From Fictibacillus nanhaiensis (GTDB taxonomy: Bacteria; Bacillota; Bacilli; Bacillales; Fictibacillaceae), in NCBI GenBank assembly GCA_016401345.1, contig JAEACG010000001.1, positions 1,364,001 through 1,428,000 of the forward strand: a stretch of 64,000 bases of DNA, written 5' to 3'. Below, piece by piece: positions 1,016-24,600 of the stretch. Position numbers and translations under genes: made by a program. Positions within the stretch are counted from its first letter, which is position 1, and the number at the start of each line of letters is the position of its first letter. Below the pieces are notes generated by a model. The model saw only the letters and a list, made by a program, of their open reading frames with translations, had not been told where the DNA came from and made no database searches.

Positions 1016-1130
1016 ACAGATCACATAAAAAATGAGCACCATCACATAAAAATATTCATTATCATATAAAAAATACACGTCATCACATAAAAAAGGCGGA
1101 TCATCATATAAAAATATGAGATCAGAAAAA
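1016..1130. repeat. Intergenic array A: five to six 20-21 bp degenerate repeats
   Basis: The core ATCAYATAAAAA recurs at 1020, 1041, 1061, 1082 and 1103, with a decayed copy at 1121, giving spacings of 21, 20, 21, 21 and 18 bp. The 8-9 bases between cores vary. The array lies between the converging terminators of prsA and yhaL. The same unit occurs in reverse orientation at 24482-24600. No reading frame with a start signal covers it. Its function is unknown to me. Confidence 0.85.
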
Positions 1131-1155
1131 ACTTGTCTATCCCAAAAAGACAATC

Positions 1156-1183
1156 AAAAGACCTGCTCTTAGCAGGTCTTTTC
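1156..1183 (-). terminator. Rho-independent terminator of yhaL
   Basis: AAAAGACCTGCT and AGCAGGTCTTTT form a strong hairpin with A/T tracts on both sides, just downstream of the yhaL stop codon on the minus strand. Confidence 0.85.
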
Positions 1184-1196
1184 CTTACTTCCTATT

Positions 1197-1544
1197 CTAC
1201 AGACGATTTGAATCATCATTATAATGATCTTCATCCCCTGCTGCTGCAACTAAATCCTCTGCATCATCATCTTCAGCGGAAGGCCGAGCTGATTCCTGAG
1301 CTTTTGCTCTCTCGATACGCTCCATGTATACTCTACCCTCTTCTTCAATCACTCTTTGCTCGATTTCTTTATCTTCTTGGAACAATGTAACGATCCGATA
1401 ACCGCTATAGATAATGCCACAAAGCACGAAATACATCCACCATGGAGTCATAGTAAAGAAGTTGCCCACTCCAGCTGAATATTCTTTTAACACAAAGGCA
1501 GCTATGAGTATGGCACCGAAGAATAAAGCAGCGTATCCTTTCAT
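1197..1544 (-). CDS. yhaL: YhaL-like sporulation membrane protein
   Basis: A 115-residue product with two hydrophobic segments (about residues 5-21 and 32-52), then a charged helix and a very acidic C-terminus. The segment from TPWWMYF through EGRVYMERI resembles B. subtilis YhaL, an uncharacterised sporulation-associated protein next to prsA, and the position here is the same. An internal Met before TPWW could be a start, but only the first codon is preceded by a strong AGGGGGAG ribosome site, so I keep the longer form. The N-terminal extra segment relative to YhaL is therefore probably real. The biochemical role is unknown. Confidence 0.7.
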   Translation of the reverse strand: MKGYAALFFGAILIAAFVLKEYSAGVGNFFTMTPWWMYFVLCGIIYSGYRIVTLFQEDKEIEQRVIEEEGRVYMERIERAKAQESARPSAEDDDAEDLVAAAGDEDHYNDDSNRL

Positions 1545-1608
1545 CGATTAACTCCCCCTTATTAGACAAGCTTTTAATACAGTCTATGAGGGATGGTAGG
1601 AAGTTATG

Positions 1609-2919
1609 TCATGAAAGTGCAGGTTCAGCTTTAGATTCTTTTTCCGTTTTATTGGACTCCATTTTTTTGTCAAACGCACGGAACATCACGTAATAGAGTC
1701 CGGCACTCATCACCGCTAAGACAAAAAGAAGATAAAACGTATTTTCAAAACCGATCCACATCGTTAATGGAATAGAGATCGGTGCGATCGTACGTCCGAT
1801 TGTAAAACGCAGACCCGCTGCTGCAAAGTACTGCCCTCTCATGTTTTCTGGCGCAAGCTTTGAAATAAAGCTTTCTTGGATTCCAACTACCATCAGCTCA
1901 GCTGTTGTAAAGATGACCATGGCACCAAAAAGAATCCACATCATCGTCGTACTGCCGAACACAAGCATCGATACACCGTATAGAAGTGCAGAAAGGATAA
2001 AGACTCTCCCTTCTTTAAATCGGTTCATCCATTTAGCCATCCAAACCGTACATAACGCAACCATCAATCCGTTAAGGGAGATCAAATAACCAAACACTTT
2101 TTCACCGGTTAATGAAATGTCCCAATTTCCAATTGCAAAGAGCGATTGTTCTGGTACTTTTTCCGTTGTATACACAGCTAAGAGTAGGTCCATCTGCATG
2201 AAGGTTTGAGCTACAAGAATACCCGCTAAGATAAATAGCAAGAATAGCTTATCACTCGCGATCACTCGATAGTCTTTCAACTGTTCACCGATCGCCTGGA
2301 ACCAATTTTTATCAGTCCCAACTTGTTCTAATACTTCTTTCTTTACAGGAACTGTTTCACGAATGTATTTCGCTAGCACGATCGCTAACACAACACTCAC
2401 GAGTAAACACGCCAGTAATAATTCAAAGCGGTAAGAGAAAAAGAAGATACTTCCCAATACAGGACCAAAGACCACCGATATGTTAATCGATGTATAAAAT
2501 ACGGCAAACACTTCACTTCTATGCTTCTCTTCTACAACATCTGCGATCATCGCGTGACTAGCTGGCCAATATAGAGAACCAAATAGCCCTAACGCTGAAA
2601 ACGCAATAAACGTTAAGATCGGTGAATCCATCCACGGCGAGTTAGCAAGACAGAAAAAGATAAACGTTGCTGCCTGACCCCAAGCCGAGATCACCATCAT
2701 CTTCTTTCGTCCATATTTATCCGCACAATAGCCACCTACAAGATTTGTGATCACACCTACAACTTGTGATAGGACTAATAAAATTCCAGCTGTTGTTTTT
2801 CCCATTTCATCCGAAAAATAGATCGCCATAAACGGGAAGAACATCCAAAACAATAGATTTACAAAAAATTCTCCTATTAAACGAACCTTCAGATTCGCAT
2901 CCCAATCTTTCCATCTCAT
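1609..2919 (-). CDS. MFS drug/solute exporter
   Basis: A major facilitator superfamily protein of about 436 residues with twelve predicted membrane segments. The conserved loop GGYCADKYGRKK after the second helix is the family signature (G-x3-D-x-GRR/K type). Such proteins act as proton-driven exporters or sugar/drug transporters of the inner membrane; the substrate cannot be read from sequence. A GTG nine bases upstream (2928) could also start translation, but AAGGAAG lies almost on top of it and is correctly spaced for the ATG at 2919. It is transcribed alone, towards yhaL. Confidence 0.8.
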   Translation of the reverse strand: MRWKDWDANLKVRLIGEFFVNLLFWMFFPFMAIYFSDEMGKTTAGILLVLSQVVGVITNLVGGYCADKYGRKKMMVISAWGQAATFIFFCLANSPWMDSPILTFIAFSALGLFGSLYWPASHAMIADVVEEKHRSEVFAVFYTSINISVVFGPVLGSIFFFSYRFELLLACLLVSVVLAIVLAKYIRETVPVKKEVLEQVGTDKNWFQAIGEQLKDYRVIASDKLFLLFILAGILVAQTFMQMDLLLAVYTTEKVPEQSLFAIGNWDISLTGEKVFGYLISLNGLMVALCTVWMAKWMNRFKEGRVFILSALLYGVSMLVFGSTTMMWILFGAMVIFTTAELMVVGIQESFISKLAPENMRGQYFAAAGLRFTIGRTIAPISIPLTMWIGFENTFYLLFVLAVMSAGLYYVMFRAFDKKMESNKTEKESKAEPALS

Positions 2920-3039
2920 GCTGTTCACTTCTTCCTTTTTGTAATTTCCGACACTGTTGATTTATCTAATCCGACTTTTGAGCAGTCACTTTCATAAGCA
3001 AGCAGTGAATACAGCAATTTTTTCAATGAGAACATAGAA

Positions 3040-3087
3040 AAAAGCCTATGAGTATACACCGTTACATGTGCATACCATAAGCTTTTC
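3040..3087 (-). terminator. Long hairpin terminator upstream of the MFS gene
   Basis: AAAGCCTATGAGTATACAC pairs imperfectly with GTGCATACCATAAGCTTTT around an 8-base loop. On the minus strand a run of six T follows. It lies 90 bases beyond the 14-codon ORF at 3179-3223, so it would end a short transcript there. Confidence 0.7.
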
Positions 3088-3178
3088 GTTAAAAAGGCTC
3101 TTGAATGGCACATGGAAAGATTGCTCAAAAGTAAGTAGATTGCATAGCAAAATAAGCCTTCCCAAATGGGACTAGACG

Positions 3179-3223
3179 TTATTTAGCTTGCTTTCTTACC
3201 TTACCTTGAACAATGCTAACCAT
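3179..3223 (-). CDS. Candidate 14-residue peptide
   Basis: A perfect AGGAGG (3233-3238) sits nine bases before an ATG that opens a 14-codon frame ending in TAA; the product is MVSIVQGKVRKQAK, basic and unlike anything I recognise. A strong intrinsic terminator lies about 90 bases downstream on the same strand. A ribosome site of this quality next to a terminator suggests a short translated transcript, but no homolog can be named and chance is not excluded. Confidence 0.35.
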   Translation of the reverse strand: MVSIVQGKVRKQAK

Positions 3224-3335
3224 GAGTCATTGCCTCCTAAAATTTCGTTTCTTAACTTCCAATTCCAAATTTACCATAACTCCCATTTTTACACAATGGG
3301 TTTTTGTTATTTGGTTGGTTGCTTCGTTGCTTTGA

Positions 3336-3471
3336 AAGTAGTGATTTCCGCTCCAGGTAGCTCGCTTTCCACGGGGCGTGCGGTGAGCCTCCTGACGCTT
3401 TGCGCCATTAGGAGTCTCCACCTGACCGCTCGTCCCGTAGGAGTCTCGCCACCTTACGCTTCAATCAACTT
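3336..3471. repeat. Dispersed palindromic repeat, copy 1
   Basis: GC-rich element of about 135 bp that starts with GTAGTGATTTCCGCTCCAGG and ends with CACCTTACGCTTCAATCAAC. The two ends are imperfect inverted repeats, and internal arms such as GACGCTTTGCGCC and CTCGTCCCGTAGGAG can fold. A longer copy is at 27243-27466 and a decayed left half at 63393-63448. From memory, similar GTTGATTTCCG...CAATCAACT elements are widespread between genes in Bacillaceae. It looks like a non-autonomous MITE-type repeat and contains no gene. Confidence 0.75.
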
Positions 3472-3514
3472 ATCAATGATGTTTTTAAAGTAACAATTCT
3501 TTTAAAATATGGCC

Positions 3515-4474
3515 TTAACTTTTCGCAAATTCCCCTTGGAATAGAGGCTTATATAACGAACGATTTTCCAGAGCGAACTGCTTATCTGTAAATTCTCCAG
3601 GTTGCACCTTTTCGAGTGCACGGTCCATCATGTTCATTCTAGCATCAAAATTATCGATCATATGAAGGATTTCTGCTTCACGAATCAGCGGCGCTTTAGG
3701 GCTTCCCCACTCCGGTTTACTGTGGTGACTTAAAACGAGATGCTGAAGGACGGTTACTTCTTCTCCTTCAATCTCTAACTCATCTGCCGCCTTACCGATC
3801 TCGTTCACCATGATTGTAATATGACCGAGAAGCTTGCCTTCAAGTGTATAAGACGCAGCAACTGGTCCTGACAACTCGATGACTTTTCCAAGATCGTGCA
3901 GAATAATTCCTGAATAGAGAAGGTCTGTATCTAGAGAAGGGTAAAGCTTGCTGAATGCTTTTGCCATGTCCAACATGGATACAACATGAAACGCAAGACC
4001 TGACACAAACTCATGGTGGTTCTTAACCGCTGCAGGATATTCCAGAAACTCAGCTTGATGTTTCTTTAACAAATGCCTTGTGATTCTTTGAATATTTGGA
4101 TTCTTCATCTCAAATATGTATTTGGTGATCGTCTCTACCATCACGTCTTGGGATAATGGAGCTGTTTCTAGGAAATCACTTACTTTAACACCATCAAGTT
4201 CCGTTGCAGGGCGAATGGCTTTAAGCTTTAACTGCATTTTTCCTCTGTAGTTCCCCATCTCACCAGCTAGTTTTACGATAGCTTGAGCTGCGTAGAGCTC
4301 TTCATCTTCTGGTGAACTATCCCATAGTTTTGCCTCCACATCACCTGTTTGATCTTGAAGGATCAACGTTAAGAATGGTTTACCATTACTTGCCGTTCCT
4401 TTAACAGATGATTTGATAAGAAAGAAACCATCTACGATCTCTCCTACCTTATAAAACGCAAGTCCTTTTTTCAT
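3515..4474 (-). CDS. yhaM: 3'-5' exoribonuclease YhaM
   Basis: Exonuclease that trims RNA (and single-stranded DNA) from the 3' end with metal ions. The 319 residues contain an OB-fold nucleic-acid-binding domain at about 12-92 and an HD metal-dependent domain whose ligands include His163 and the H-D pair near residues 193-194 (ILHDLGK), followed by [10 protein letters not shown]. Length and motifs match B. subtilis YhaM (314 residues). The start has a GGCGGGGTG ribosome site. It is separated from the two-component genes upstream by about 100 bases and probably has its own promoter. Confidence 0.93.
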
Positions 4475-4577
4475 CTTTCACCCCGCCTTTCTTTGCTTTA
4501 GTATAGCATATCCGTCTATTTAACTACTTGTCATAACACTAAGTTGGTAAAATTTACGCCTAGTGAATGACTCTCTT

Positions 4578-5942
4578 CTAACCCTTTCTTTTTGGGTTAG
4601 TTATCGGAATCTTAATCTGAAAAGCTACCCCTTCTGCTCTATTCTCGGCGACCACTTTTCCTCCATGCAGTTCCGCAATTCGTTTTACAATAGCAAGCCC
4701 TAGTCCAAACTGACCTTTATTTCCTTTTCTGAACGGCTGGAAGATTTCTTCTCCTGTTACACCCGTGAGACTCTCTCCATCATTAAATACTTCAATAACA
4801 AAGTCAGATCCGTTATTAAACGCTGACAGTCGAATCGTCTCGTGTGCATAACGTAGTGCGTTCTGAACTAAATTATCTAGCAGAATACCCCATTGCTCTT
4901 TATCACCATTCAGATTGTAATGGTTACCTGTAATCTCAAAATCTATGTCTTCACGCTGATACCTAAATCGTTCAACAATATCCTCTGCCAGATCACCAAA
5001 GTTAAAATTCTCTTTTGTAAAAACATCGAGTTTCATAGCGTCGAGCTTTGTATAATACAGCATATTTTGAACACGCTTTTCCATTCTTTCCGTCTCTTTT
5101 AAGATCACGTCCATCATATCTTCTGTTGTATCCTTTGGCATGATGCCATCTTTTACAGATTGAGCGTAACTCTTGATCGTCATGATAGGTGTCTTTAATT
5201 CATGAGACGCATGCTGAATAAACGTTTTTTGTGCATGATCATGTCTTAACAAGTTTTGACGCATCTCTTCAAACTGTTTGGAAAGAATATAAAATTCATC
5301 ATCACCCTTCCAATGAAACGGCTCCTGCCAGTTGCGTTTGGCGATCTGTTCGAACCGCTTTCCTAAGATGGTGAGAGGTGAACGCAAATACCGTGCTAAC
5401 CAAATCGCAGGGATGATAGAGAATATACCTGTAAACAACAAAATCAAAACAAGCCTTAGCCATAATCGGTTAACCATTTGATCGCGATACGTATCCCACA
5501 TATAGGAGATTAAATACACCTTTTCGCCTTTTACGTTGGTCTTTGTTGTAATCGCATAAAATAAGGTCGCATCTTCATACGTTAGCTCGTAACGTCCTTT
5601 ATTCTTCTTTTGTTTGTATGCTTTTTCAGCCATCTCATAAAGAACTTCTTCAGGTACAGGATCACCTTGTGAGTTGGCGTACTTGTCAACAATCACTACA
5701 TGTCCAACATCACGAGCAGCATTCCTTCTTTCAATAAAATCAGTTGGAGATTCCCCTTCTCTAGGAAGCTGATTGTTGGGATCCCATACATTCTGCTGCT
5801 CGTTCTCTATGATTCGATACGTTTCTTCAGTCAGCGTGTCTTTAATGGATAGCGGATAGATGATCGCGGTTAAGAGACCAATCGTAAAAATCAGCAGCCC
5901 GAATGAAAGCCATATACGCTGAGTTAGGTTTAAACGTATCAT
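4578..5942 (-). CDS. cssS: CssS-like sensor histidine kinase (secretion stress)
   Basis: Membrane kinase of 454 residues. Two transmembrane helices (about 10-31 and 159-182) enclose an extracytoplasmic sensor of about 125 residues. A HAMP region follows, then the phospho-acceptor box HASHELKTP with His247, an N-box NLVQNALRYA and G-boxes ending GLGLAIVKRIAELHGG. The stretches TYRIIENEQ, SYMWDTYRDQ and IPAIWLARYL resemble B. subtilis CssS, which senses misfolded exported proteins. It overlaps the regulator gene by four bases (ATGA), so the two are translationally coupled. That it is CssS rather than another family member is an inference supported by these similarities. Confidence 0.75.
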   Translation of the reverse strand: MIRLNLTQRIWLSFGLLIFTIGLLTAIIYPLSIKDTLTEETYRIIENEQQNVWDPNNQLPREGESPTDFIERRNAARDVGHVVIVDKYANSQGDPVPEEVLYEMAEKAYKQKKNKGRYELTYEDATLFYAITTKTNVKGEKVYLISYMWDTYRDQMVNRLWLRLVLILLFTGIFSIIPAIWLARYLRSPLTILGKRFEQIAKRNWQEPFHWKGDDEFYILSKQFEEMRQNLLRHDHAQKTFIQHASHELKTPIMTIKSYAQSVKDGIMPKDTTEDMMDVILKETERMEKRVQNMLYYTKLDAMKLDVFTKENFNFGDLAEDIVERFRYQREDIDFEITGNHYNLNGDKEQWGILLDNLVQNALRYAHETIRLSAFNNGSDFVIEVFNDGESLTGVTGEEIFQPFRKGNKGQFGLGLAIVKRIAELHGGKVVAENRAEGVAFQIKIPITNPKRKG

Positions 5943-6616
5943 GATGGTATAATCCTATAACCAGCTCCGTAAACGGTCTCTAAGTTCAATCGAGGCATCT
6001 TCTTACGCACACGTCTGATCACATCATCCACAGCGCGTTCAGATCCGAAATAATCGTCTCCCCAAACATATTCTAAGATCTCTTCTCGCTTACGAGATTT
6101 CCCTTTGTTCTCGATTAAAAAAAGAAGAACGTCGATCTCTTTTCCTGTAAGATTAATCATCTTTCCATCACGTGTGATCTTTCTTGAGATCGGATCAATC
6201 ATATACCCCGTAATCTCAATGGTTTGAGGCAGGCGGTTACCAGTTTCATATATTCTCGTTAACAGTTTTCTAACTCGAATAACGAGCTCTCTTGGCATGA
6301 AAGGCTTTGCTAAATAATCATCACTGCCCAGCTCAAGTCCAACGATTCGATCCAAGTCTTGGTCTCGAGCAGAAACAAAAATAACAGGGATGTCTGAAGT
6401 CTTTTTGATCTCTTTAATAATTTCATAGCCATCCATACCAGGCAGCATAATATCTAATATCCATAGATGAGGCTTCTTCTCTTCAGCATTCTTCAAAGCA
6501 TCTTCTCCATTGTGAAAAACCGAAACGCTCCAACCTTCTTTTTCCATATAGGCCTTCAGCACTTGAGCAAGATCTTGTTCATCTTCGACTAAGTAAATGG
6601 AATACTCATTTGACAT
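5939..6616 (-). CDS. cssR: CssR-like response regulator (OmpR family)
   Basis: Two-domain transcription factor of 225 residues. The receiver domain (1-120) has acidic residues near 11-12, phospho-acceptor Asp55 in HLWILDIMLPG and Lys104 in the AKPF motif. A winged helix of the OmpR/PhoB type follows, with YVWGDDYFGSERAVDDVIRRVRKK. HLWILDIMLP and LELGSDDYLAKPFMPREL match B. subtilis CssR closely from memory. The AGGAGGGG ribosome site is strong. In B. subtilis CssR activates htrA and htrB proteases; no htr-type gene lies next to it here. Confidence 0.78.
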   Translation of the reverse strand: MSNEYSIYLVEDEQDLAQVLKAYMEKEGWSVSVFHNGEDALKNAEEKKPHLWILDIMLPGMDGYEIIKEIKKTSDIPVIFVSARDQDLDRIVGLELGSDDYLAKPFMPRELVIRVRKLLTRIYETGNRLPQTIEITGYMIDPISRKITRDGKMINLTGKEIDVLLFLIENKGKSRKREEILEYVWGDDYFGSERAVDDVIRRVRKKMPRLNLETVYGAGYRIIPS

Positions 6617-6636
6617 GAGCCATTCCCCTCCTTTGG

Positions 6637-9492
6637 TTACATTTCAGCGATAACGGATTGGTGTGGCCAATGTATGACAGGAACTGATGGAACGGTAGAA
6701 GCGATATGTTTATGACAGGTAAAGAACAGTACCTGCCGATCAAACGCAGCTTCTTGTATCAATTGTAATGTTCGTTTTGTCCTTAAGCCATCAAAGTTAA
6801 CCGCAATATCGTCCATTAAAATCGGAAAGTCTTTCGGTCCTGCATGGTAAGCTACTGCTAATCGGATAGCTAAATACACTTGTTCTGCAGTCCCCCGGCT
6901 TAACTCATGCGGGTAAAAACCTATTCCTTCCCCGTTTACAACCATTAGTTCATTTTTGTCTGTGAACGTAATAGATTGATATTCACTTTCTGTTATTTTA
7001 CTAAAATAAACACTCGAAGTCTCTAAAACCGCTGGTAGCTTTGTTTTTTGATATTCTTCTTTTACTTTTAAAAGAGCATGCTGTGCAAGGCGCACGCTTG
7101 CCCATTTCTTAACGAGCGTGTTCCATTCATCTTTAAGCATCTCAAAACGATGCATATTCTCTGAGTAACTGCCATCTTCAAGCAGTTTCGCTAATTCCCA
7201 GTCCAGTTTCCCTTTTGCTTCAACCTTCTCGGCATATTGTTTTTGTATTTCTTCCTCTTTTCCTTCCAGAAATGATATATGATGAAGCGTTTTTTCAAAG
7301 TGAACCGTTACTTTCTCCGCCATCACAACGACTTCTTCTTCTGAAAACCCTAACGATATCAATTGATTAAATAGCGATTCACGTTCTTCTTTTAGCTTGC
7401 TGAACCGTTCCTTGTTTTTACCTTTTACATAAAAGTCTGCTTCCTTGCTAACTTTGGCATCATTCCACAAAGTATGGATCTGATCATCTAAAAAGGTGAT
7501 TTTTTTCTCAAACTCTTCCCTTCGCTCGATGAGTTCCCTTCTATTTTGCTGTAGGTGCACTGCTCGCGATTGATTTTTAAGCTGCTTCTCCAATTCGGCA
7601 TAACAAGAGTTGATCCAGTATTTCGTATCTTCTTGGGGTTCTTCTCCCAATACAAGTGATAGTGAACTGGCTTTCTTCTCATAATTATTTTGTTTTAGCG
7701 TTATATCTTTTACTTTAATTTCTGCTTCATTTCGCTGTCTTAACAAATCCTTAAGCTGAAGAACTCGCTTCATATAACCTGATACGAAAAGCCGGTCCAA
7801 CTGCCCTTTGTACCCGTTATCTGACGCCCATCGTTGTGCACGATCAAGGACAGTTGCTTCTTCCACTTCTAAATAATCCAGCCGTTTAGCAAGCTGTACA
7901 TAGATGTTGTTTTCGTTAGAAAGCTGTAGAGAGAGCTGCATCCATTGTTTACGATTGACCTCATCTTCTAACAATCGATGATGTATGTGTTTTGGCATTT
8001 CTTCACCTGACTGGTTCTTCCTCAAATACATGAAGCTTAAAACCAGCGACGTAATCAACAGAAGAACTCCCCCAAACATGACTGGTGGATGATTTGAAAT
8101 CCAACCAGACCAAAGAAGTAATACGGAAGAAATTATGGGCAATAGTATTGTATAGGAAGGAATATTTCTTGTTTGTTTATGATTTGAGTGCTGATACTTT
8201 GCATATTCTTCTTCAGATAGTAGGTTCGCTTTTTGTTGTGCTTCTTCCGCTTCTAAACGCTCGAGATTCATTCTAGAGTCCTCGAGCTCGTCTTCTAACC
8301 TACTTTGTTTATCTTTAACCTGCTCATGCTGCTTGATCAAATCTTCTAGAAGATGAAGAGAAGATAAAGACAGTGAAAGTTTCTTAAGCTCTTCTTCAGA
8401 CCACGTTTCTCCGATCTCATCAACGAGCTCTCTTTCTTCATTTTTTAAAGCCTGTATGTGACGTTGAAGCTCTTGTAGCTGGTTGAAGTGATGTTCATAT
8501 TCAGGAAGGTGATTAAACAATCGTTTAATCTCTGTTTCGTATTTTATTATTACTTCATTACTTATCACTGATTTCAGCTCGGTTTCAACATCTTGAATAC
8601 GGCTATCTGTGTACGTTAAGTCACTTTTTAAGCCTGAATACTCTTTTCGCCATTCGTCATATTGTTGAAGTCCGTTTTCTGGAAAATAAAATTGGTCAGA
8701 ATCCAGAGAGCTTATCTCTACATCAAGCTGTCTATATTTTTGCAGTACAGGCTTTAATTCGAGTAGCCTCTTGTTTGAGAGAAGTTCTGTTTGGATCTCC
8801 GTCAACTCTTGTTTAATTCTTTCAAGAACCTTTTGTTGAACTTCTTTTTCGTTCGTTAACGCCTGATAACTCTCGTTTTTTTCTTTTAAGAGTTGAAGTG
8901 ATTTTGCTGATGAAGAAAGCTGTTCTAATTTTTCATTAATGATTGGTTTTTTGCCTGCTTTTTTAAATAAAAGAGCTTGTTTCTTCTCAAATGTTTGTTC
9001 GATGTTTAATAGATCACTGTCACCTGAAATCGCGGTGCTTAATAAAAAATTACCGAGTTCTTCAGATGATAACTTGTCTAATTTTTGTAAGCCATCAAGA
9101 CCAAAGCAAAATGCACCCGTAAACAAGGATTGTTCCATTCCATCTAACAACTGTATCAGAAATGCTTCTTCTTTCTGCTGCCCCGTTTCATCAAAAAGTG
9201 TGACATCACCCATTACAGTAGATCGCGCTATTCTCTCAATCGTCCAAGTGCCGTGTATTTGATGGTGAATGGTGATCTTACCACCCATTCTGTTTCCGTC
9301 TTTAGGTTCATAGCGGCGTTGATTTTGACTTTTTGTAGGAAAACCGTAGAACATACATTTAATAAAGTCCATCAGTGTCGTTTTTCCTGCTTCGTTTTCT
9401 CCGTAAAGAATCTGTAGCCCCTTATTTTCGAAGTTGATTCTACAATCCTTTAAACCACCGAAGTGATAGATATGAAGGGAAACGAGTTTCAT
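6637..9492 (-). CDS. yhaN: YhaN, SMC/Rad50-like ATPase with a membrane hairpin
   Basis: A 951-residue AAA ATPase built like SbcC/Rad50. Walker A is GENEAGKTT at residues 31-39; the far C-terminus carries a signature-like HELSRGTAEQ and Walker B PILMDDIAVNFD, followed by the H-loop region FFTCH. Long coiled coils fill the middle, interrupted by two hydrophobic helices (about 60 residues, IPSYTILLP to LVLSFMYLR) that would place the coiled-coil tip at the membrane. Length agrees with B. subtilis YhaN (about 960). It starts eight bases after yhaO, the nuclease partner, so both form one operon. The exact DNA substrate is not known from sequence. Confidence 0.9.
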   Translation of the reverse strand: MKLVSLHIYHFGGLKDCRINFENKGLQILYGENEAGKTTLMDFIKCMFYGFPTKSQNQRRYEPKDGNRMGGKITIHHQIHGTWTIERIARSTVMGDVTLFDETGQQKEEAFLIQLLDGMEQSLFTGAFCFGLDGLQKLDKLSSEELGNFLLSTAISGDSDLLNIEQTFEKKQALLFKKAGKKPIINEKLEQLSSSAKSLQLLKEKNESYQALTNEKEVQQKVLERIKQELTEIQTELLSNKRLLELKPVLQKYRQLDVEISSLDSDQFYFPENGLQQYDEWRKEYSGLKSDLTYTDSRIQDVETELKSVISNEVIIKYETEIKRLFNHLPEYEHHFNQLQELQRHIQALKNEERELVDEIGETWSEEELKKLSLSLSSLHLLEDLIKQHEQVKDKQSRLEDELEDSRMNLERLEAEEAQQKANLLSEEEYAKYQHSNHKQTRNIPSYTILLPIISSVLLLWSGWISNHPPVMFGGVLLLITSLVLSFMYLRKNQSGEEMPKHIHHRLLEDEVNRKQWMQLSLQLSNENNIYVQLAKRLDYLEVEEATVLDRAQRWASDNGYKGQLDRLFVSGYMKRVLQLKDLLRQRNEAEIKVKDITLKQNNYEKKASSLSLVLGEEPQEDTKYWINSCYAELEKQLKNQSRAVHLQQNRRELIERREEFEKKITFLDDQIHTLWNDAKVSKEADFYVKGKNKERFSKLKEERESLFNQLISLGFSEEEVVVMAEKVTVHFEKTLHHISFLEGKEEEIQKQYAEKVEAKGKLDWELAKLLEDGSYSENMHRFEMLKDEWNTLVKKWASVRLAQHALLKVKEEYQKTKLPAVLETSSVYFSKITESEYQSITFTDKNELMVVNGEGIGFYPHELSRGTAEQVYLAIRLAVAYHAGPKDFPILMDDIAVNFDGLRTKRTLQLIQEAAFDRQVLFFTCHKHIASTVPSVPVIHWPHQSVIAEM

Positions 9493-15700: not shown

Positions 15701-15960
15701 AGAAATCGCTCATAAATTTCTAGAATCGCTCACAAATCTCAATAACCGCTCATAAATTTCTAGAATCGCTCACAAATCTCAATAACCGCTCATAAATCCC
15801 AAGAATCGATCACAAATCTCAAGAACCGCTCACAAATCTCAAGAATCGCTCACAAACCTCAAGAATCGCTCACAAACCTCAAGAATCGCTCACAAACCTC
15901 AAGAATCGCTCACAAATCCCAAGAATCGCTCACAAATCTCAAGAATCGCTCACAACTGCC
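15701..15960. repeat. Intergenic array B: thirteen 20 bp tandem repeats
   Basis: Thirteen consecutive units of exactly 20 bp with consensus AAGAATCGCTCACAAATCTC. Early units (15701-15790) are more diverged (CATAAATTTC, ACCGC) and later ones nearly identical, as expected for tandem expansion. A period of 20 is not a multiple of three, so it is not coding. There are no unique spacers, so it is not CRISPR. It lies between the yhaX terminator and the upstream region of dhaS. Confidence 0.9.
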
Positions 15961-16048: not shown

Positions 16049-16900
16049 CTATCTTTTCAACGTCTGGAAGCGCATCTGCTTGCGGAACACTTCTTTAATC
16101 ATGTACGGTACGCCTAGCTGGTCGTTTGTACGCGTGATCCACTTCGCTTTTCTCTTCACTTCATCAGGTGCGTTTGCCATCGCCACACCTAGCCCTGCAA
16201 ACTCGATCATATCTAAATCGTTATAAGAATCCCCGATCGCTACCATCTCATTTGGTGCGATGCCAAGTTTCTCACCAAGGAACCTTAACGCATTTCCTTT
16301 TGTTACTTTTTTAGCTGTGATCTCTAACTGACATTTAGCTGAAGAAGAATATTCAAAGTCTGGCATATGTTCTTTTAGATACTTCATAGCAGACTCGCAT
16401 TCTTTTTCATCAAAAAACTGTACATCCATCTTTGGCGGTGCCACTTCTTGCGCGAGAACATAATCTCCTAAATTCTCTGTGAAAGAAACAGGATAGAACA
16501 ACGGATCCCCCGTACTTAGTGTTAACTTGGCGACGAGCTGACTTTTTTGCTTAAGCTGATTTCCGACGGAGAAGCGCTCATGGACTACCCGCATGTGGCA
16601 TTCGTAATTTCCAAGCACTTCTACTATTCTGTAAGTATCCTCGACCGATAACCTTTTTTCTTGAAGAGGTTCATCAAGAGATGAAGCAATGAATCCACCA
16701 TTATGACTGATCAGATAACTGTCGATCTTTAAAGCTTTGGCGATTTTTTGTGTAGATGGAAAACTCCTGCCCGAAGCGAGTGTGACATAGACCCCTTTTT
16801 GCTGCACATAATCAATGGCTTCTTTCGTTTCTTTATCGATACGGAAATTGCTTCGCAGTAGGGTTCCGTCGATGTCAATCGCTAGTAAACGGTATACCAT
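16049..16900 (-). CDS. yhaX: HAD-superfamily Cof-type phosphatase, YhaX-like
   Basis: A 283-residue haloacid dehalogenase phosphatase with a C2B (Cof) cap. Motif I is AIDIDGTLL with nucleophile Asp, motif II VTLASGRS, motif III the Lys in KGNALRFL, and motif IV AIGDSYNDLDMIEFAG. It hydrolyses a small phosphorylated metabolite; members of this subfamily in B. subtilis act on sugar phosphates or the riboflavin intermediate ARPP. The name follows position (next to yheA/yheB) and family, not direct identity. GGGGGGAG precedes the start. Confidence 0.75.
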   Translation of the reverse strand: MVYRLLAIDIDGTLLRSNFRIDKETKEAIDYVQQKGVYVTLASGRSFPSTQKIAKALKIDSYLISHNGGFIASSLDEPLQEKRLSVEDTYRIVEVLGNYECHMRVVHERFSVGNQLKQKSQLVAKLTLSTGDPLFYPVSFTENLGDYVLAQEVAPPKMDVQFFDEKECESAMKYLKEHMPDFEYSSSAKCQLEITAKKVTKGNALRFLGEKLGIAPNEMVAIGDSYNDLDMIEFAGLGVAMANAPDEVKRKAKWITRTNDQLGVPYMIKEVFRKQMRFQTLKR

Positions 16901-18611: not shown

Positions 18612-18682
18612 ATTTTTATCTCCATTACTCTAGATTCTATTTTCCTAGTATACGTCATTTTGAATTGTGCTAGCAATTTGGA

Positions 18683-19372
18683 CTACACACTTGGAAGGAT
18701 GTCTACATAATAAAAGCGGTCTTCTTTACTGATCATATCCTTTACGATTCGAGTCTCACCTAACGTATACGTAATAGGATAGGAAAAGTTCGGTCCATCA
18801 AAAACAAATGTGTGAAATTCTCCGTTCTCGCCACAAATGTCATGTTTCTTTGGATAGTCCTTTTTAAACTGCTCGTCTATGACCCGGCCAGTAAAAGAGG
18901 CATCTATTTTTAAAGTATCCGAGCAGCATACCACAGTCTTAAACCCCTTACGTAAGAACTCATCTATAATATGCTCTGTACTCTCGCCCCATATTGGAAA
19001 TACAGGTGTAATCCCTGTACCGTTTAACATTTTTTCGCGGTACTTTTTTACATCTTCTAAAAAAATATCGCCAAACATGATGTACTGTATACCATCAGCT
19101 TTAATATCATCAACGGCTTTTTTCATTCTTTGCTGGTACATATCATTCGGACAATCTTTAGGTATCCAAACAACTCGAAGCGGTAAACCAAGTGATTGTG
19201 CTTGCATTTCTAGGAGTTCATTGCGAACACCATGCATGGTTGTCCGCTCATAGTCCTCTGTCAACGTTGTTAGTAAAGAATCGATCTCCCATTCCTCAGA
19301 CTGCTGCAATCGATACAAAGCTAAAATTGAATCTTTGCCTCCGCTAAATGAAACTACAATTTTTCTCTTCAT
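18683..19372 (-). CDS. Dph6-like ATP pyrophosphatase
   Basis: A 229-residue enzyme of the adenine nucleotide alpha-hydrolase fold. The PP-loop SFSGGKDS (residues 8-15) binds ATP, and the tail DICGENGEFHTFVFDGP is the signature of the diphthine-ammonia ligase family. Bacteria lack diphthamide, so it probably adenylates and amidates another substrate. The ribosome site GGAGGG is good. It is followed by the deacetylase gene about 20 bases upstream on the same strand, probably in one transcript. Confidence 0.8.
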   Translation of the reverse strand: MKRKIVVSFSGGKDSILALYRLQQSEEWEIDSLLTTLTEDYERTTMHGVRNELLEMQAQSLGLPLRVVWIPKDCPNDMYQQRMKKAVDDIKADGIQYIMFGDIFLEDVKKYREKMLNGTGITPVFPIWGESTEHIIDEFLRKGFKTVVCCSDTLKIDASFTGRVIDEQFKKDYPKKHDICGENGEFHTFVFDGPNFSYPITYTLGETRIVKDMISKEDRFYYVDILPSV

Positions 19373-19392
19373 ATAGAACCCTCCATAGTTAA

Positions 19393-20010
19393 CTATTTAG
19401 GAGGCAATACAAACTCATAGCCTTCTAGTTTTAATTCAGAAATCAATTCGTCTAGTATTCTCACGGTTTGCTTTAATTCATGCAACAAGATAACAGAGCC
19501 ATCCTCTGCATGATTCAAGATGTTATGAACAATGTGTATGGGATCATGTTTGTGTTCCCAGTCAAGACCTGCGACTTCCCATAAGAAAGGAACTTTGCAG
19601 AGCTCTTTAAGAACATGCAATGTATCTTCGTTGAACTGTCCGTAAGGCGGACGAAAGTATTTAACTTCTTGACCTGTAAGTACCTCTAGATGCTTTAAAT
19701 TCGTAGAAATATCATGCATCTGATCACGATAAGAAAGTCTCGTTAAAACACGATGGCGCAATGAATGCCCACCGATCATATGGCCTTCCTCTATCACACG
19801 TTTCCACGGACGATTTTTATGCAGCAACTTCGACTGCCAAAAGAACAACGCTTTAACATTATATTTTTTAAGAATATCCAGCAGTTCAACTAAAACAGAA
19901 GATGGCCCATCATCAAAAGTTAGAATTAGAGATTTCGATCCTTTTGTTTTATAGTGCTTGTCCCAATTTTTTATATTTGTCCATATATCTTTATTTTCCC
20001 AGTCGTACAC
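19393..20010 (-). CDS. Polysaccharide deacetylase (NodB domain) with an in-frame stop near its start
   Basis: NodB-type deacetylase, which removes acetyl groups from wall or exopolysaccharide sugars with a metal ion. Motifs are LTFDDGPSS (catalytic Asp and metal Asp), HSLRHR (metal His pair), RPPYGQF and LLHE. The open frame begins at a GTG (20010) with no ribosome site. Twelve codons upstream in the same frame an ATG (20046) follows an excellent AGGAGGAG, but codon 6 of that frame is TGA (20031-20029). The gene looks like an ATG-started frame interrupted by one nonsense codon, or else is started weakly at GTG. No signal peptide is visible. Confidence 0.75.
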   Translation of the reverse strand: MYDWENKDIWTNIKNWDKHYKTKGSKSLILTFDDGPSSVLVELLDILKKYNVKALFFWQSKLLHKNRPWKRVIEEGHMIGGHSLRHRVLTRLSYRDQMHDISTNLKHLEVLTGQEVKYFRPPYGQFNEDTLHVLKELCKVPFLWEVAGLDWEHKHDPIHIVHNILNHAEDGSVILLHELKQTVRILDELISELKLEGYEFVLPPK

Positions 20011-20140
20011 GACCGTTGAAGAAGTTACTCAAGGACACGTTTTCATGGTGTCTCCTCCTCTTGGAAATCTGTTAGTTTAGTTAACCACTTAACATTGCTA
20101 TAATAATAGCAAGCTTTTCGTTGAAAGGATATGAAAATGG

Positions 20141-21037
20141 ATGCTTGATAAGCTAAAGAAGCACTATAAGAATTTATTCACAACAGACCTCTCACAGCAG
20201 TCAGGCTTTTACTGGTTCCTTACTGATGATAGCGAGCCGTTTGGGATTTCTAAATCTGCCGTTTCTGGATCCGAACTTACATTACTTCAATCGATGTTTA
20301 ACATATATGAAAATGATAATCAGGCAAATATTTTTTCTTCACAGCAGTTAAAATGGAAATCGCTCCTTTTTGATGATGAACTATCAACTGAAGAAGGTTT
20401 CTACCGATTTGTCCATTTTTTTAGCAAACAGCCTATTACCGATTATGCTTCCTTTTCTGAAGCGGTAAACGGACTTTTTCCTGAAGATGCTGTTCTCCTT
20501 CTGAACAGGGATCTTAAGAGTGGCGTTATTATTGAAACATCGAAACAGGAATTTAGTGAAACACCTTATGAAGCGTTAAAAGATATGCTTTCAACAGACT
20601 TTTATATGGATATTTCTATTTATATAGGGTGCTATAACAGTCAACTGAATCGCGCAAAAGAAACCTATGACAGAGAACAGCAACAATTTTTAAATGTGAG
20701 GAATCACTTGATGCCGAAATCCGTATATACGGTAGCTGATATCGTGCCGTATATCCTTCTTCAGTCTGCTAGTCCTATGGCCGATCAAACATTAACTGCA
20801 TTAGTAGAAGAATGGCGGGAAGAAGACGAAGAAACTTTAAAAAGCATCAAAGTATTTGTTGAATGCAACCTCAACGTTTCGTTAGCGGCGAAACAATTAT
20901 ATATTCACCGAAACAGCCTTCAATATCGTGTGGAAAAGTTTTACGACAAAACAGGCATAGATGTGAAACAACTGAAAAACGCACTCACCGTGTACTTAGC
21001 GATTCTTCTTATCGAACAAAAAGAGAGAAATATGTAA
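20141..21037 (+). CDS. PucR/CdaR-type transcription regulator
   Basis: A 298-residue regulator. The C-terminal 60 residues form the PucR helix-turn-helix, with VFVECNLNVSLAAKQLYIHRNSLQYRVEKFYDKTG; this is the purine-catabolism/sugar-diacid regulator type. The N-terminal 220 residues have no domain I can name and may sense a ligand. It is divergent from the deacetylase gene and precedes the orphan permease pair, which it might control. A strong terminator separates it from them, so any control would act through their own promoter. Confidence 0.75.
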   Translation: MLDKLKKHYKNLFTTDLSQQSGFYWFLTDDSEPFGISKSAVSGSELTLLQSMFNIYENDNQANIFSSQQLKWKSLLFDDELSTEEGFYRFVHFFSKQPITDYASFSEAVNGLFPEDAVLLLNRDLKSGVIIETSKQEFSETPYEALKDMLSTDFYMDISIYIGCYNSQLNRAKETYDREQQQFLNVRNHLMPKSVYTVADIVPYILLQSASPMADQTLTALVEEWREEDEETLKSIKVFVECNLNVSLAAKQLYIHRNSLQYRVEKFYDKTGIDVKQLKNALTVYLAILLIEQKERNM

Positions 21038-21070
21038 CAGCTGCTTCCATTTTCGGAAGCAGCTTTTTTA
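21038..21070 (+). terminator. Terminator of the PucR-type regulator
   Basis: AGCTGCTTCC and GGAAGCAGCT pair around ATTTTC and are followed by TTTTTT. Confidence 0.92.
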
Positions 21071-21213
21071 TGCCTACAAACGTAGATTCATCACCTATGG
21101 AAAACAAACAGGGATAAGAAAATGTCTATTTACAAATAAAGGAATAAATCACCTTATGTCGAATTATTTCTAAAAAATAGAGATAACGTGAGTAACAGGG
21201 GGATTCAATTCTA

Positions 21214-22233
21214 ATGAAGTATTTTAAACAACCTTCTTTTTTAATCGGATTAACGATTCTAGTCTTACTTCTTAGTGGGAGTTTTGCCTATTCACTTTTG
21301 AAGGAAGAAAGTACTCCTTCAAATATTCTTTATGATGAAAAAGGAAAAATGATTGACCGAGCACCTTTTGAAAGAAGTGCGGAATACCCACTGGGTTCAG
21401 ATCAATTTGGAAACAATTACGTTTACGTCCTGCTTGAAGGAGCAAAATACACGCTCGGTTTTGTAGTGTTGATCACGATAAGCAGAATGATTTTATCGAT
21501 CTTAGTATCATTTATTCTTCTCGTGGTTCCTAGCTTTATAAAGAAACTAATCAATAGAATTTCAGAAATTTTTTATTTTGCACCTCTGTCCATTTTTGCT
21601 TACCTGCTCATCGCACCAGCTTTAATTGCTTTCAGCTGGAGCTATTCTGACTTTACACAATTTATGATCACTACTTGTGTACTCGTCGTGTTGACTGTGC
21701 CCGTCTTATCCGTACAAATTGCGAATGAGATCTCTATCTTATCAAAGGAAGAATTCATTCAGCACGCACCTCTTTTAGGAGGTGGAAGGATTCACGTGTT
21801 CATGAAGCATATCCTACCCTGTCTATCACCTAAGCTTCTGCTCTTAACCGTTCAGCAAGCCGGCCAAACCTTAGCTATACTCGCCCATCTTGCTTTTTTA
21901 AAAATCTTCGTTGGTGGATTCTCAAAGATTACGTACACACTTCCTGGTGTATCAGGCACACCGGTAACGTATGAAAGAACGTTCTCAGATTCTCATGAAT
22001 GGGGTGGTTTGATCGTTCAGAACTGGGACTTTTATTATGGGGCTCCAATACTCGTAATCGCTCCCGTATGTTGTTTTGTTCTATGTTCCATCGCTATAAA
22101 TTTAATGGTCTCCGGCATGACTAAAAGTGAGAATCATTCATCCACAATGCAGAAGAAAAAGATAACGACCTCTGAAGAAACCCTTCCATCAGCTTCATTT
22201 CTGCCAGTGAAGAAAGGGAGGCTGAACGCATGA
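21214..22233 (+). CDS. ABC permease of the peptide/nickel (DppC/OppC) type
   Basis: Inner-membrane permease of 339 residues with about six helices. Near the N-terminus, EYPLGSDQFGNNYVYVLLEGAKYTL is the OppC/DppC entry motif (HPLGTDxxGRD...GARxSL), and LSKEEFIQHAPLLGGGRIHVFMKHILP is the EAA coupling loop. A hydrophilic C-terminal tail of about 45 residues is unusual. It overlaps the next permease by four bases (ATGA). No binding protein or ATPase of the peptide family is adjacent, so the partners must lie elsewhere or the pair is a remnant. Confidence 0.75.
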   Translation: MKYFKQPSFLIGLTILVLLLSGSFAYSLLKEESTPSNILYDEKGKMIDRAPFERSAEYPLGSDQFGNNYVYVLLEGAKYTLGFVVLITISRMILSILVSFILLVVPSFIKKLINRISEIFYFAPLSIFAYLLIAPALIAFSWSYSDFTQFMITTCVLVVLTVPVLSVQIANEISILSKEEFIQHAPLLGGGRIHVFMKHILPCLSPKLLLLTVQQAGQTLAILAHLAFLKIFVGGFSKITYTLPGVSGTPVTYERTFSDSHEWGGLIVQNWDFYYGAPILVIAPVCCFVLCSIAINLMVSGMTKSENHSSTMQKKKITTSEETLPSASFLPVKKGRLNA

Positions 22234-23162
22234 TCAAAACGGCTGGAAAGCTACTTTCATTCTTTTTGTTATCTATTTTAGGGATTCTCCTTTTCACTTC
22301 ACTGCCTGTCCTTATTTATGACTATTCGGTGCTAATGAATAACACTAGATTAATTGATACTGGGCAACTCGATAACAATTCTTTTTTAACAAATAGCATA
22401 CAGTTTGAACTACACGCGTATTTGCAACAATTAAAATTTACAGTTCAGCAGATCATGGACCTTACACAAACCACCTATTACTCTAACGGGAGTGACTATC
22501 AGCTCTTGCCTGCCTTTTTAGAGGTGTATCCCCAATCTTTATCGTTTTTTATGGGAGGGCTTTTAGCCAGTCTCCTAGTTGGGATCAGTTTTGCTGTTAT
22601 ATATATGATCTTTCCATACCACATCAGGTTAATCATCAAAAAAATAATACTTGCGATTGAAACGTTGCCGGATGTCTTCATCATCATCTTAGTACAGCTG
22701 ACAGTGATCTGGTTTTATAAAACGACCGGGTTACTTATGTTTAACATCGTAAATGTATACAAAACAGAGGCATACTTTTTGCCGATATTCACGATTTCCA
22801 TACTTCCTACTCTATATGTAACGAAATACTTAATCTTAAGCATGGAAGACGAATCAAATAAGAGTTATATCGAATTCGCAAGAGGAAAGGGTTTAAAAAG
22901 CATATATCTTATCATTGTTTATATGTTGAAAAATACAGCTCCCTCTCTTTTTGGACAAACGAAGACCATCTTTTGGATCCTTTTATCAAACCTTTTGATC
23001 CTTGAGATTATTTTTAACATCTACGGCATCATGCGTTTTATAGCTGAATATGGTGTAGAAAACCCTCACCTTGCAGCCATTTGCATGATCGCTATCTTTC
23101 TTCCTTTTTTTATTATTTTTGCAACGGGCAGCCTGCTCATTCGAAAATTAGACCCACGTTAA
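22230..23162 (+). CDS. ABC permease of the peptide/nickel (DppB/OppB) type
   Basis: Second permease of the pair, 310 residues. The first helix is followed by an extracytoplasmic loop of about 80 residues, then five helices, as in OppB/DppB. The coupling loop is SYIEFARGKGLKSIYLIIVYMLKN, matching the EAA-like YVRTARAKGLS...HALRN pattern. The usual N-terminal GD-x-G motif of active OppB proteins is not evident, and overall similarity is low. Substrate is unknown. Confidence 0.72.
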   Translation: MIKTAGKLLSFFLLSILGILLFTSLPVLIYDYSVLMNNTRLIDTGQLDNNSFLTNSIQFELHAYLQQLKFTVQQIMDLTQTTYYSNGSDYQLLPAFLEVYPQSLSFFMGGLLASLLVGISFAVIYMIFPYHIRLIIKKIILAIETLPDVFIIILVQLTVIWFYKTTGLLMFNIVNVYKTEAYFLPIFTISILPTLYVTKYLILSMEDESNKSYIEFARGKGLKSIYLIIVYMLKNTAPSLFGQTKTIFWILLSNLLILEIIFNIYGIMRFIAEYGVENPHLAAICMIAIFLPFFIIFATGSLLIRKLDPR

Positions 23163-23164
23163 TC

Positions 23165-23214
23165 TCAAACAGCCTTTTTGTGCACATTGCATAAAGAGGT
23201 TGTTTTATTTTAGG
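23165..23214 (+). terminator. Probable terminator after the permease pair
   Basis: AAACAGCCT and AGGTTGTTT pair with one G-T wobble across a loop and are followed by TATTTT. It separates the permeases from msmX. Confidence 0.6.
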
Positions 23215-23241
23215 CAAGTCGTCCATTTACGATATAGGACA

Positions 23242-23279
23242 TGAAAGCGTAAACTTAAAACATTAAGAAAACGTTTACA
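23242..23279 (+). promoter_or_regulatory. Two cre-like catabolite response elements upstream of msmX
   Basis: TGAAAGCGTAAACT at 23242-23255 matches 12 of 14 positions and AGAAAACGTTTACA at 23266-23279 matches 13 of 14 positions of the CcpA consensus TGWNANCGNTNWCA. The second ends just before the ribosome site. This suggests carbon catabolite control of msmX; binding is not shown. Confidence 0.5.
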
Positions 23280-23299
23280 TCGGAAGGGGATTCATTTAA

Positions 23300-24397
23300 A
23301 TGGCAGAAATTAAGTTAAATAACATCGTTAAACGATATGATAACAAAGTAACAGCTGTACATGATTTCAACCTTGATATCTCGGATAAAGAATTCATCGT
23401 ATTCGTAGGACCATCTGGTTGCGGTAAATCAACAACTCTTCGTATGATCGCTGGTTTAGAAGAAATTTCTGAAGGTGATCTGATCATCGATGAGCGCGTT
23501 GTAAACGACGTAGCTCCAAAAGATCGTGACATCGCGATGGTTTTCCAAAACTATGCCCTGTATCCTCACATGAACGTTTATGACAACATGGCATTCGGAC
23601 TTAAACTAAGAAAGTTCAGTAAAGAAGAAATTGAAAAGCGTGTTAAAGAAGCAGCACGTATTCTTGGTCTTGAGCAATACTTGGATCGTAAACCAAAAGC
23701 ACTTTCAGGTGGACAACGTCAACGTGTTGCACTAGGGCGTGCAATCGTTCGTGATGCAAAAGTATTCTTAATGGATGAGCCTTTATCAAACCTTGATGCG
23801 AAACTTCGTGTTCAGATGCGTGCCGAGATTACAAAGCTTCACCAACGCCTGCAAACGACTACGATCTATGTAACGCATGACCAAACAGAAGCGATGACAA
23901 TGGCAACACGTATCGTTGTTATGAAAGACGGACGTATCCAGCAAGTTGGATCTCCGAAAGAAGTATACGATACACCTGAGAACATCTTCGTTGGCGGATT
24001 TATCGGTAGCCCTGCTATGAACTTCTTGAACGGTACCCTTGAAGACGGATTCTTCAAAGTGGGTGACACTAAGATTGCTGTTCCTGGTGGAAAAATGAAG
24101 ATTCTTCAAGAAAAAGGCTACAACAACAAAGATGTTGTTCTAGGTATTCGTCCTGAAGATATTCATGACGAGCCTGTATTCCTAGAGTCTTCTTCAAACA
24201 CGAAGATTGAAGCGAAGATCGACGTTGCTGAACTTATGGGTGCTGAAACATTCTTATACTCTACAGTTAGCGGTCAAGATTTTATCGCACGTGTAGATTC
24301 TCGTACAGACATTCGCAACGGTCAGAACATCTCCTTAGCGTTTGATATGAACAAATCACATTTCTTTGATAAAGAAACAGAACTACGTATTCGTTAA
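23300..24397 (+). CDS. msmX: MsmX-type multi-sugar ABC transporter ATPase
   Basis: ATPase of 365 residues that energises several carbohydrate ABC importers encoded elsewhere. Walker A is GPSGCGKST, the Q-loop FQNYALYPHM, the signature LSGGQRQR, Walker B VFLMDEPLSNLD and the switch VTHDQTEAMTMA. The C-terminal regulatory (MalK/TOBE-like) domain begins near residue 240 with GIRPEDIHDEP. Length equals that of B. subtilis MsmX. It is a solitary gene with its own terminator, as expected for a shared ATPase, and its codons look highly biased, suggesting good expression. Confidence 0.93.
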   Translation: MAEIKLNNIVKRYDNKVTAVHDFNLDISDKEFIVFVGPSGCGKSTTLRMIAGLEEISEGDLIIDERVVNDVAPKDRDIAMVFQNYALYPHMNVYDNMAFGLKLRKFSKEEIEKRVKEAARILGLEQYLDRKPKALSGGQRQRVALGRAIVRDAKVFLMDEPLSNLDAKLRVQMRAEITKLHQRLQTTTIYVTHDQTEAMTMATRIVVMKDGRIQQVGSPKEVYDTPENIFVGGFIGSPAMNFLNGTLEDGFFKVGDTKIAVPGGKMKILQEKGYNNKDVVLGIRPEDIHDEPVFLESSSNTKIEAKIDVAELMGAETFLYSTVSGQDFIARVDSRTDIRNGQNISLAFDMNKSHFFDKETELRIR

Positions 24398-24410
24398 TTC
24401 ATATGTTTGC

Positions 24411-24443
24411 AAAAAGCTCTGCTTGATTAAGCAGAGCTTTTTG
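24411..24443 (+). terminator. Terminator of msmX
   Basis: AAAAAGCTCTGCTT and AAGCAGAGCTTTTT form a strong hairpin with a T tract. Confidence 0.92.
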
Positions 24444-24481
24444 TTGTCCATTTTTTTGACTACCTAGCATCAAAATATGGA

Positions 24482-24600
24482 ATTTCATGTGATGCAACTA
24501 TACTTTTATATGATAGCACTTAATTTTTATATGATCGTCCACTAAAATTATGTGATCATGCCTTCTTTTTATGTGATCATGCCTCCTTTTTATGTGATAT
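24482..24600. repeat. Intergenic array C: six 21 bp degenerate repeats
   Basis: Cores of the form TTTTTATRTGAT end at 24493, 24514, 24535, 24556, 24577 and 24598, exactly 21 bp apart each time. Read on the other strand the core is ATCAYATAAAAA, the same unit as array A at 1016-1130, 23 kb away and in opposite orientation. Bases between cores vary (GCCTCC, GCCTTC, GTCCAC). It lies between the msmX terminator and the promoter of the amino acid transporter. Confidence 0.88.

Follow-up and report, generated by a model that had tools for sequence, protein, structure and literature searches.

Two short arrays of direct repeats, here called A and C, lie 23 kb apart in a 64,000-nucleotide stretch of the Fictibacillus nanhaiensis genome (GenBank assembly GCA_016401345.1, contig JAEACG010000001.1, positions 1,364,001 to 1,428,000 of the forward strand; hereafter the window) and are built on the same 12-bp core, ATCAYATAAAAA. 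They are members of a large set of short arrays that are found mostly near gene ends and look like docking strips for predicted DNA-binding proteins. The initial annotation of the window knew of no described family of this kind, and the literature that we searched likewise yielded no description of such arrays, with most subscription papers lying outside that search. Its account of A and C also stands: the two share one core at 20-21 bp spacing in opposite orientation, and all five intervals in array C measure exactly 21 bp.

1020..1114, plus strand: array A, five exact ATCAYATAAAAA cores (1020-1031, 1041-1052, 1061-1072, 1082-1093 and 1103-1114) at intervals of 21, 20, 21 and 21 bp
24482..24598, minus strand: array C, six units with core ATCAYATAAAAA at exactly 21 bp, starting at 24482, 24503, 24524, 24545, 24566 and 24587

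The core is exact in eight of the 11 units of both arrays taken together; in array C three of the six units are exact and the remaining three carry two, one and three mismatches. Two adjacent spacers of array C are almost the same, which is likely the trace of a recent unit duplication.

Exact ATCAYATAAAAA occurs 39 times in the source genome (4.28 Mb in 26 contigs) as opposed to four times for the reversed pattern. Nine arrays account for 33 of these copies and six are singletons; the array rather than the lone core is the feature. Two cores separated by 8 to 10 nucleotides (core-N8-10-core) are found 21 times in the source genome and never in the reversed control, which was silent in all 149 genomes of the order that were searched; the pattern occurs in 15 of the 18 Fictibacillus genomes, with no match in G007, G012 and G017, and in none of the 131 others. 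A collection of 84,980 species returned 69 matching stretches, 65 of them from Fictibacillus. The other four come from a single Dysgonamonadaceae metagenome-assembled genome (MAG; two stretches), a Flavobacteriaceae MAG and a Bacilli MAG; the last two matches are, by eye, isolated pairs within AT-rich sequence. The Dysgonamonadaceae contigs bear 21-bp arrays, and such arrays are therefore not confined to the Bacillales. The initial annotation had proposed this search of the source and related genomes and had named two outcomes that would speak against the arrays, a core as common at random spacing and a want of conservation in sister strains; we encountered neither.

Removal of duplicate rows and of the four non-Fictibacillus loci gave a set of 78 A-type arrays, from which 20 later-collected stretches and further listed pair places were left out. 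By the similarity of their flanking genes these fall into 34 groups, treated here as independent loci. Among the 78, four arrays have two units, 18 have three, 30 have four, 25 have five and one has six, while the 34 representatives comprise three to six units each and 147 in total. These copy numbers are lower bounds, because 14 of the 34 representatives carry a further degenerate unit in phase past the last chained core. With chaining that allowed 20-22 bp only, 108 of the 113 intervals in the 34 loci are 21 bp long, four are 20 bp and one is 22 bp. Across the 147 units the core columns hold 1.2-2.1 bits each, a figure inflated by the choice of units by core match (at most three mismatches), and the spacer columns 0.02-0.33 bits, with a weak preference for T and C at the positions just before the core. 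The core is asymmetric and has no dyad symmetry. The word ACATAATT is seen in eight of the 34 3' flanks; it and the degenerate 3' units possibly give the A-type arrays a polarity.

Two loci in genome G000, L019 and L025 (C12:438684 and C20:268795), resemble each other in both flanks and likely represent a segmental duplication. They are the only such pair among six pairwise flank matches in the 34 representatives, and a mobile element with conserved flanks was rejected as the origin of the arrays. Carriage by viruses was rejected as well: a single viral contig (L298) holds one pair, by eye part of a degenerate repeat that is not of the Fictibacillus type. Two Bacteroidota MAG contigs (L064, 2202-2379, and L108, 2402-3013) carry 21-bp arrays sharing the word TTTTTATGTGAT, the former preceded, as judged by eye, by a hairpin-like stretch.

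Cores and spacers at orthologous loci

The initial annotation proposed that core and period are kept while the rest drifts, and both the uniform intervals and the comparison of orthologous loci agree with it. The alignments comprised 11 A-type rows at locus C, seven of the eight A-type rows at locus A (G001 left out) and three rows of a second type, F. In the four larger A-type groups the mismatch rate is 0.04-0.08 for the core, 0.23-0.62 for the spacer and 0.19-0.36 for the flank, although only array-bearing rows were alignable, which favours kept cores somewhat. The underlying counts (core, spacer and flank) are 14/357, 50/216 and 113/585; 20/324, 51/189 and 170/673; 10/120, 61/98 and 89/248; and 18/504, 109/286 and 248/1051. 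For the pair G011/G016 the counts are 0/24, 1/9 and 21/99; for the F group they are 2/108, 16/54 and 64/287. A larger set, 94 pairs from 18 loci that had been located by means of an exact core pair, was aligned with many gaps and gives 251/4623, 904/2504 and 2656/15483, the core having a lower mismatch rate than the spacer in 17 of the 18 loci. Cores thus change several-fold more slowly than spacers, which change about as fast as the flanks or faster, and for this reason the core appears to be under selection.

The arrays themselves come and go. At locus C, where the downstream gene is present in 18 of 18 Fictibacillus genomes, 11 genomes have an A-type array, G012 has a two-unit remnant, G014 has a 21-bp array of a different core, ATTACCGTGNATAAA, and the remaining five lack an array; G003, G004 and G008 also differ in the terminator. 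At locus A (the prsA locus, whose orthologues were found via the convergent gene) eight of the 18 genomes have type A, three (G005, G006 and G014) have type F with the core ACCGWACAAAAA, two (G009 and G012) repeat, by eye, TTCGCTCA or TTCGCGCA every 20-21 bp, and the other five lack an array. The occurrence of different cores at the same site suggests that it is the element, and not any one core, that matters there. Some gains and losses involve whole units: in the better group alignments, G009, G013, G005 and G014 lack 21- or 42-bp blocks when set against their own group, and G000 has an extra array C unit whose spacer almost repeats that of its neighbour. The 20-bp step of array A in G000 is a 1-bp change. 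In G004, G008, G017 and G005 (L245, L247, L257 and L251) the gap at locus A contains or adjoins GC-rich, dispersed-looking sequence with GGTGAG-type motifs, as judged by eye.

Further core families

Two further arrays in the window, on which the initial annotation is silent, belong to different families.

15704..15955, plus strand: array B, 20-bp unit (core CGCTCAYAAA) repeated 12.6 times
16049-16900, minus strand: HAD hydrolase gene, with array B 3' of the gene
38855..38950, plus strand: array D, 21-bp unit (core AATCCAMRAGTTT) repeated about four times
39059-39526, minus strand: lumazine synthase gene, with array D 3' of the gene

We scanned 864 kb of Fictibacillus DNA (the window, 400 kb of G000 and 200 kb apiece from G005 and G007) at periods of 10-60; a match required four units in a row sharing eight or more identical columns (ten or more if the period exceeded 30). 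The scan recovered 21 intergenic arrays, 17 of period 21, two of period 20 and one each of periods 40 and 60, these single cases belonging to family B at multiples of its 20-bp period; inside open reading frames (ORFs) there were 14 matches, with periods of 21, 30, 36, 42, 45, 51 and 60. Outside the window, the 800 kb sampled contain 17 intergenic arrays. No array appeared when the samples from G000, other genera and the window were block-shuffled, a result that together with the reversed-pattern controls rules out a chance origin. A protein-coding heptad repeat is unlikely in view of the period of 20 in family B and the 20-bp step in array A.

Exact pairs of family B are present in 12 of the 18 genomes of the genus and in three of 131 others (with two single control matches), those of family D in 14 of 60 genomes, all of them Fictibacillus (14 of 18) and often at many loci, and those of family F in three of 60 genomes. 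The genus thus possesses several core families, and the unit of A and C is one of these rather than something special to two arrays. Some family B arrays span 400-540 bp with near-identical units (L141, L145). The initial annotation had also offered architectural DNA as an explanation, an option that is weakened as far as intrinsic bending is meant as the general cause: A-tract curvature was set aside because the family B and G014 cores, which recur at a similar period, lack any run of more than three A, whereas the family D core does contain runs of four A.

In 343 kb from other genera we found two arrays each in G019 and G022 (same family as the source genome), one in G063 between transposase-like ORFs and one in G079 beside a Rep3 gene; a further 400 kb gave one array each in G019, G057 and G069, the last overlapping an ORF. 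In the window, a flavin mononucleotide (FMN) riboswitch lies on the minus strand ahead of minus-strand genes, the last of which is the lumazine synthase gene beside array D.

Arrays between transcription units and how they might act

Genes were called on both sides of 75 A-type arrays, 30 of which lie in convergent and 45 in tandem gaps; the 34 independent loci divide into 13 convergent and 21 tandem, and no array or locus is divergent. The baseline from 464 kb of the source genome is 58 divergent among 187 gaps of at least 120 bp, or 27 among 111 gaps of at least 200 bp, against which none in 34 corresponds by simple arithmetic to about 3e-6 and about 8e-5, respectively. Of the 47 gene ends that face an array among the representatives, 34 have a terminator-like hairpin ahead of the array, a count that has no baseline rate beside it. 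As to whether copies keep to the gaps between transcription units, a question posed by the initial annotation, 10 of the 78 arrays are overlapped by a called ORF. Arrays A and C both lie past terminator-like hairpins and between the main genes, as the initial annotation had it when it placed them beyond terminators and outside operons.

5-898, plus strand: PrsA-type peptidylprolyl isomerase gene upstream of array A (NCBIfam matches below cut-offs)
836-1153, minus strand: short ORF overlapping array A (105 amino acids, TTG start)
914..945, plus strand: terminator-like hairpin and T run 3' of the PrsA-type gene (by eye and terminator scan)
1150..1180, minus strand: terminator-like hairpin of the gene convergent to array A (by eye and terminator scan)
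1197-1544, minus strand: convergent gene to the right of array A (without NCBIfam match)
23300-24397: UgpC-type ABC ATPase gene upstream of array C
24411..24444, plus strand: terminator-like hairpin of the UgpC-type gene, before array C (by eye and terminator scan)
24661..24689, plus strand: sigma-A-like promoter TTGACG-17-TACAAT of the downstream substrate-binding gene, outside array C (by eye)
24737-25516: amino-acid-type ABC substrate-binding gene downstream of array C (matches below cut-off)

The short ORF is probably spurious, because the PrsA gene is overlapped by it too. The promoter-like stretch appears similar in most of the orthologous loci. The spread of arrays over the chromosome was judged by eye from the G005 positions only.

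We tentatively propose, at a confidence somewhat below an even chance, that the arrays are strips of asymmetric protein-binding sites which act as a boundary or roadblock after terminators. Each strip would offer three to six asymmetric sites to a sequence-specific DNA-binding protein; with the sites two helical turns apart, the protomers would be aligned on one face of the DNA and could bind cooperatively, a lone site being presumably insufficient. Such cooperative, one-sided binding fits the asymmetric and slowly changing core, the free spacer, the strict two-turn period and the presence of several copies. The strips would sit just past the ends of transcription units, mostly beyond an intrinsic terminator, and the bound complex might halt read-through or antisense RNA polymerase, restrict the spread of supercoils between adjacent units, or both; a boundary or roadblock role is consistent with arrays that lie mostly past terminators and are absent from divergent gaps. 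Each of the several core families in a genome would presumably have its own protein, and the families would be interchangeable at a site. Two 21-bp arrays near Rep3 genes (L239, 19890-19993, and L299, 1059-1164) are likely plasmid iterons, and suggest that protein-bound direct repeats can have such a period. Extended to the genus, the proposal would make the arrays a genome-wide class of post-terminator boundaries in Fictibacillus, sparser elsewhere, with sites at two-turn spacing and co-evolving proteins, whose cores switch between lineages while the place is kept; this wider claim we regard as possible but doubtful.

If the proposal is correct, these would be bacterial insulator-like or roadblock elements that can be recognised by their two-turn period from sequence alone, and a direct handle on how neighbouring transcription units are kept apart in a compact chromosome. 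That sister species carry different core families at a shared site would then be a natural experiment in how a DNA-binding protein and its target co-evolve. Were the arrays merely tolerated repeats, a slow 12-bp core beside a freely changing spacer would still need explaining.

Several observations weigh against the boundary proposal. No binding protein was found. Five of 18 genomes have no array at each of the two loci compared, and no single array is therefore essential. In the gappy alignments of the 94-pair set, the spacer mismatch rate exceeds that of the flanks at 16 of 18 loci, and the arrays contain 221 gap events, only 16 of them unit-sized (11 of 773 in the flanks) and most of 1-4 bp, gap counts which we report without relying on them. 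The period of 20 in family B does not hold the units on one face; against a helix of 10.5 bp per turn they would rotate and would not be strictly one-sided. The gene calls come from an ORF heuristic and not from annotation, 13 of the 47 facing gene ends have no detectable terminator, and the absence from divergent gaps may reflect the avoidance of promoters and not a function. Moreover, four arrays of other families were called divergent (L216 in G000, two in L224, and L146), although only L216 has Pfam support for both neighbours. Orientation relative to the upstream gene provides little help: counted by array, 35 of 45 in tandem gaps have TTTTTATGTGAT on the sense strand, and by group the figure drops to 14 of 21. 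A strand rule is thus strong per array but not per independent locus, where 14 versus 7 is a weak trend and the sign test is not significant.

The alternatives have to be judged against the same observations. The arrays could be dispersed repeats, akin to minisatellites or to the repetitive extragenic palindromes and mosaic elements (REP/BIME) of other bacteria, that persist mainly through being tolerated between transcription units and whose core is maintained in trans by a copying or recombination factor. Such repeats would be extragenic and absent from divergent gaps (none in 34 loci), would occur as several families per genome, would be lacking at the orthologous sites of some species and would show unit duplication as well as long arrays of near-identical units like those of family B, all of which is seen; however, the core is kept while the spacer drifts in place among orthologues, a sign of selection acting site by site, copying of spacers from one locus to another is confined to the duplicated pair L019/L025, and the core contains no palindrome. 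We consider tolerated repeats unlikely on these grounds. Operator arrays of transcription factors, in which a core family would define a regulon and binding would tune nearby promoters, sit poorly with 13 convergent and no divergent loci among 34 and with flanking genes that have no evident pathway in common (PrsA-type, PheT, RNase HIII, ABC transporters, GcvH octanoyl/lipoyl transfer, phosphotransacetylase). The recurrence of one core across 34 loci, the end of array C about 60 bp upstream of the promoter-like sequence, and the other-family array L216 in a divergent gap with both neighbours supported are what operators might produce, yet taken together the evidence makes this decidedly unlikely.

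An RNA element that acts in read-through transcripts or 3' untranslated regions as a protein- or RNA-binding repeat would account for the 3' location and for the weak bias in orientation among tandem loci (14 of 21). Folding of the U-rich strand is marginally better than that of its shuffles (mean z -1.05, five of 34 below -2; for the A-rich strand mean z -0.39, three of 34 below -2), a signal so weak that a conserved RNA fold was rejected. With arrays mostly past the terminator, drifting spacers that would leave no space for conserved pairing, a strict period of 20-21 nt that RNA does not explain, and no Rfam match above the gathering score at any array in the window (the sole match there being the FMN riboswitch at 41577-41724), such an element is highly unlikely. 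Finally, the cores might be the repeats and the 9-nt intervals the guides of a guide-type array similar to CRISPR or to the tandem interspaced guide RNA (TIGR) arrays of TIGR-Tas. A repeat of about 12 nt with 9-nt spacers does resemble the short repeats and 9-nt spacers of TIGR arrays as described in excerpts of the source (PMC12045711), but the same excerpts give those arrays two alternating repeats (edge and loop) and an adjacent Nop-domain Tas gene, whereas the A-type arrays have a single core, and the source genome has no match to PF01798 (Nop), a model that may miss a divergent Tas. The spacers drift by point mutation among orthologues, and the arrays are many, small and dispersed. CRISPR arrays, in which repeats measure some 25-36 nt and the spacers are comparable in length (PMC12045711, in excerpt), are also unlike a whole Fictibacillus unit of only 20-22 bp, and a guide function appears exceedingly improbable.

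Likeness to known repeat systems

Plasmid iterons are tandem direct repeats with a period of about 17-22 bp, and those of the Rep3 type are closest to the arrays in form, both being direct and asymmetric with a period of about 21 bp; with 108 of 113 intervals at 21 bp the A-type arrays share the iteron period. Iterons mark plasmid origins next to a replication initiator gene, whereas the arrays of Fictibacillus are scattered along the chromosome in gaps that separate transcription units. No initiator is present among the NCBIfam-named neighbours of the nine source-genome arrays, several neighbours having no match and the right-hand gene of L021 being excluded. Rep3, the one initiator family searched for, occurs in one of the 18 Fictibacillus genomes, which is not the source genome. 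REP/BIME sequences lie near gene ends, avoid divergent gaps and go together with a REP tyrosine transposase (RAYT), and share with the arrays their extragenic position. Excerpts of the literature describe them as repeats of high copy number outside genes, proposed to take part in supercoiling and termination (PMC3733652, PMC2817692), and REP as palindromes of 20-40 bp, whereas the array core is asymmetric and the constant feature is the 20-21 bp period. REP/BIME, iterons and TIGR arrays each fail a defining feature that was tested.

ParR/parC centromeres belong to a partition locus and are built from serial sites of about 20 bp, and mycobacteriophage stoperators are dispersed asymmetric sites that block transcription and are linked to a prophage repressor; the arrays resemble the former in being arrays of about 20-bp sites and the latter in being dispersed and asymmetric. 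Neither ParM nor ParR is among the named neighbours of the nine source-genome arrays, no search having been aimed at parM/parR. The TAACTGA heptamer repeats of Beggiatoaceae, cyanobacteria and Bacteroidetes also form many dispersed sets of direct repeats, mostly of 2-6 copies, and differ, in the excerpts of their description (PMC4679880), in being contiguous 7-mers with no variable spacer that in the main species lie mostly just upstream of start codons.

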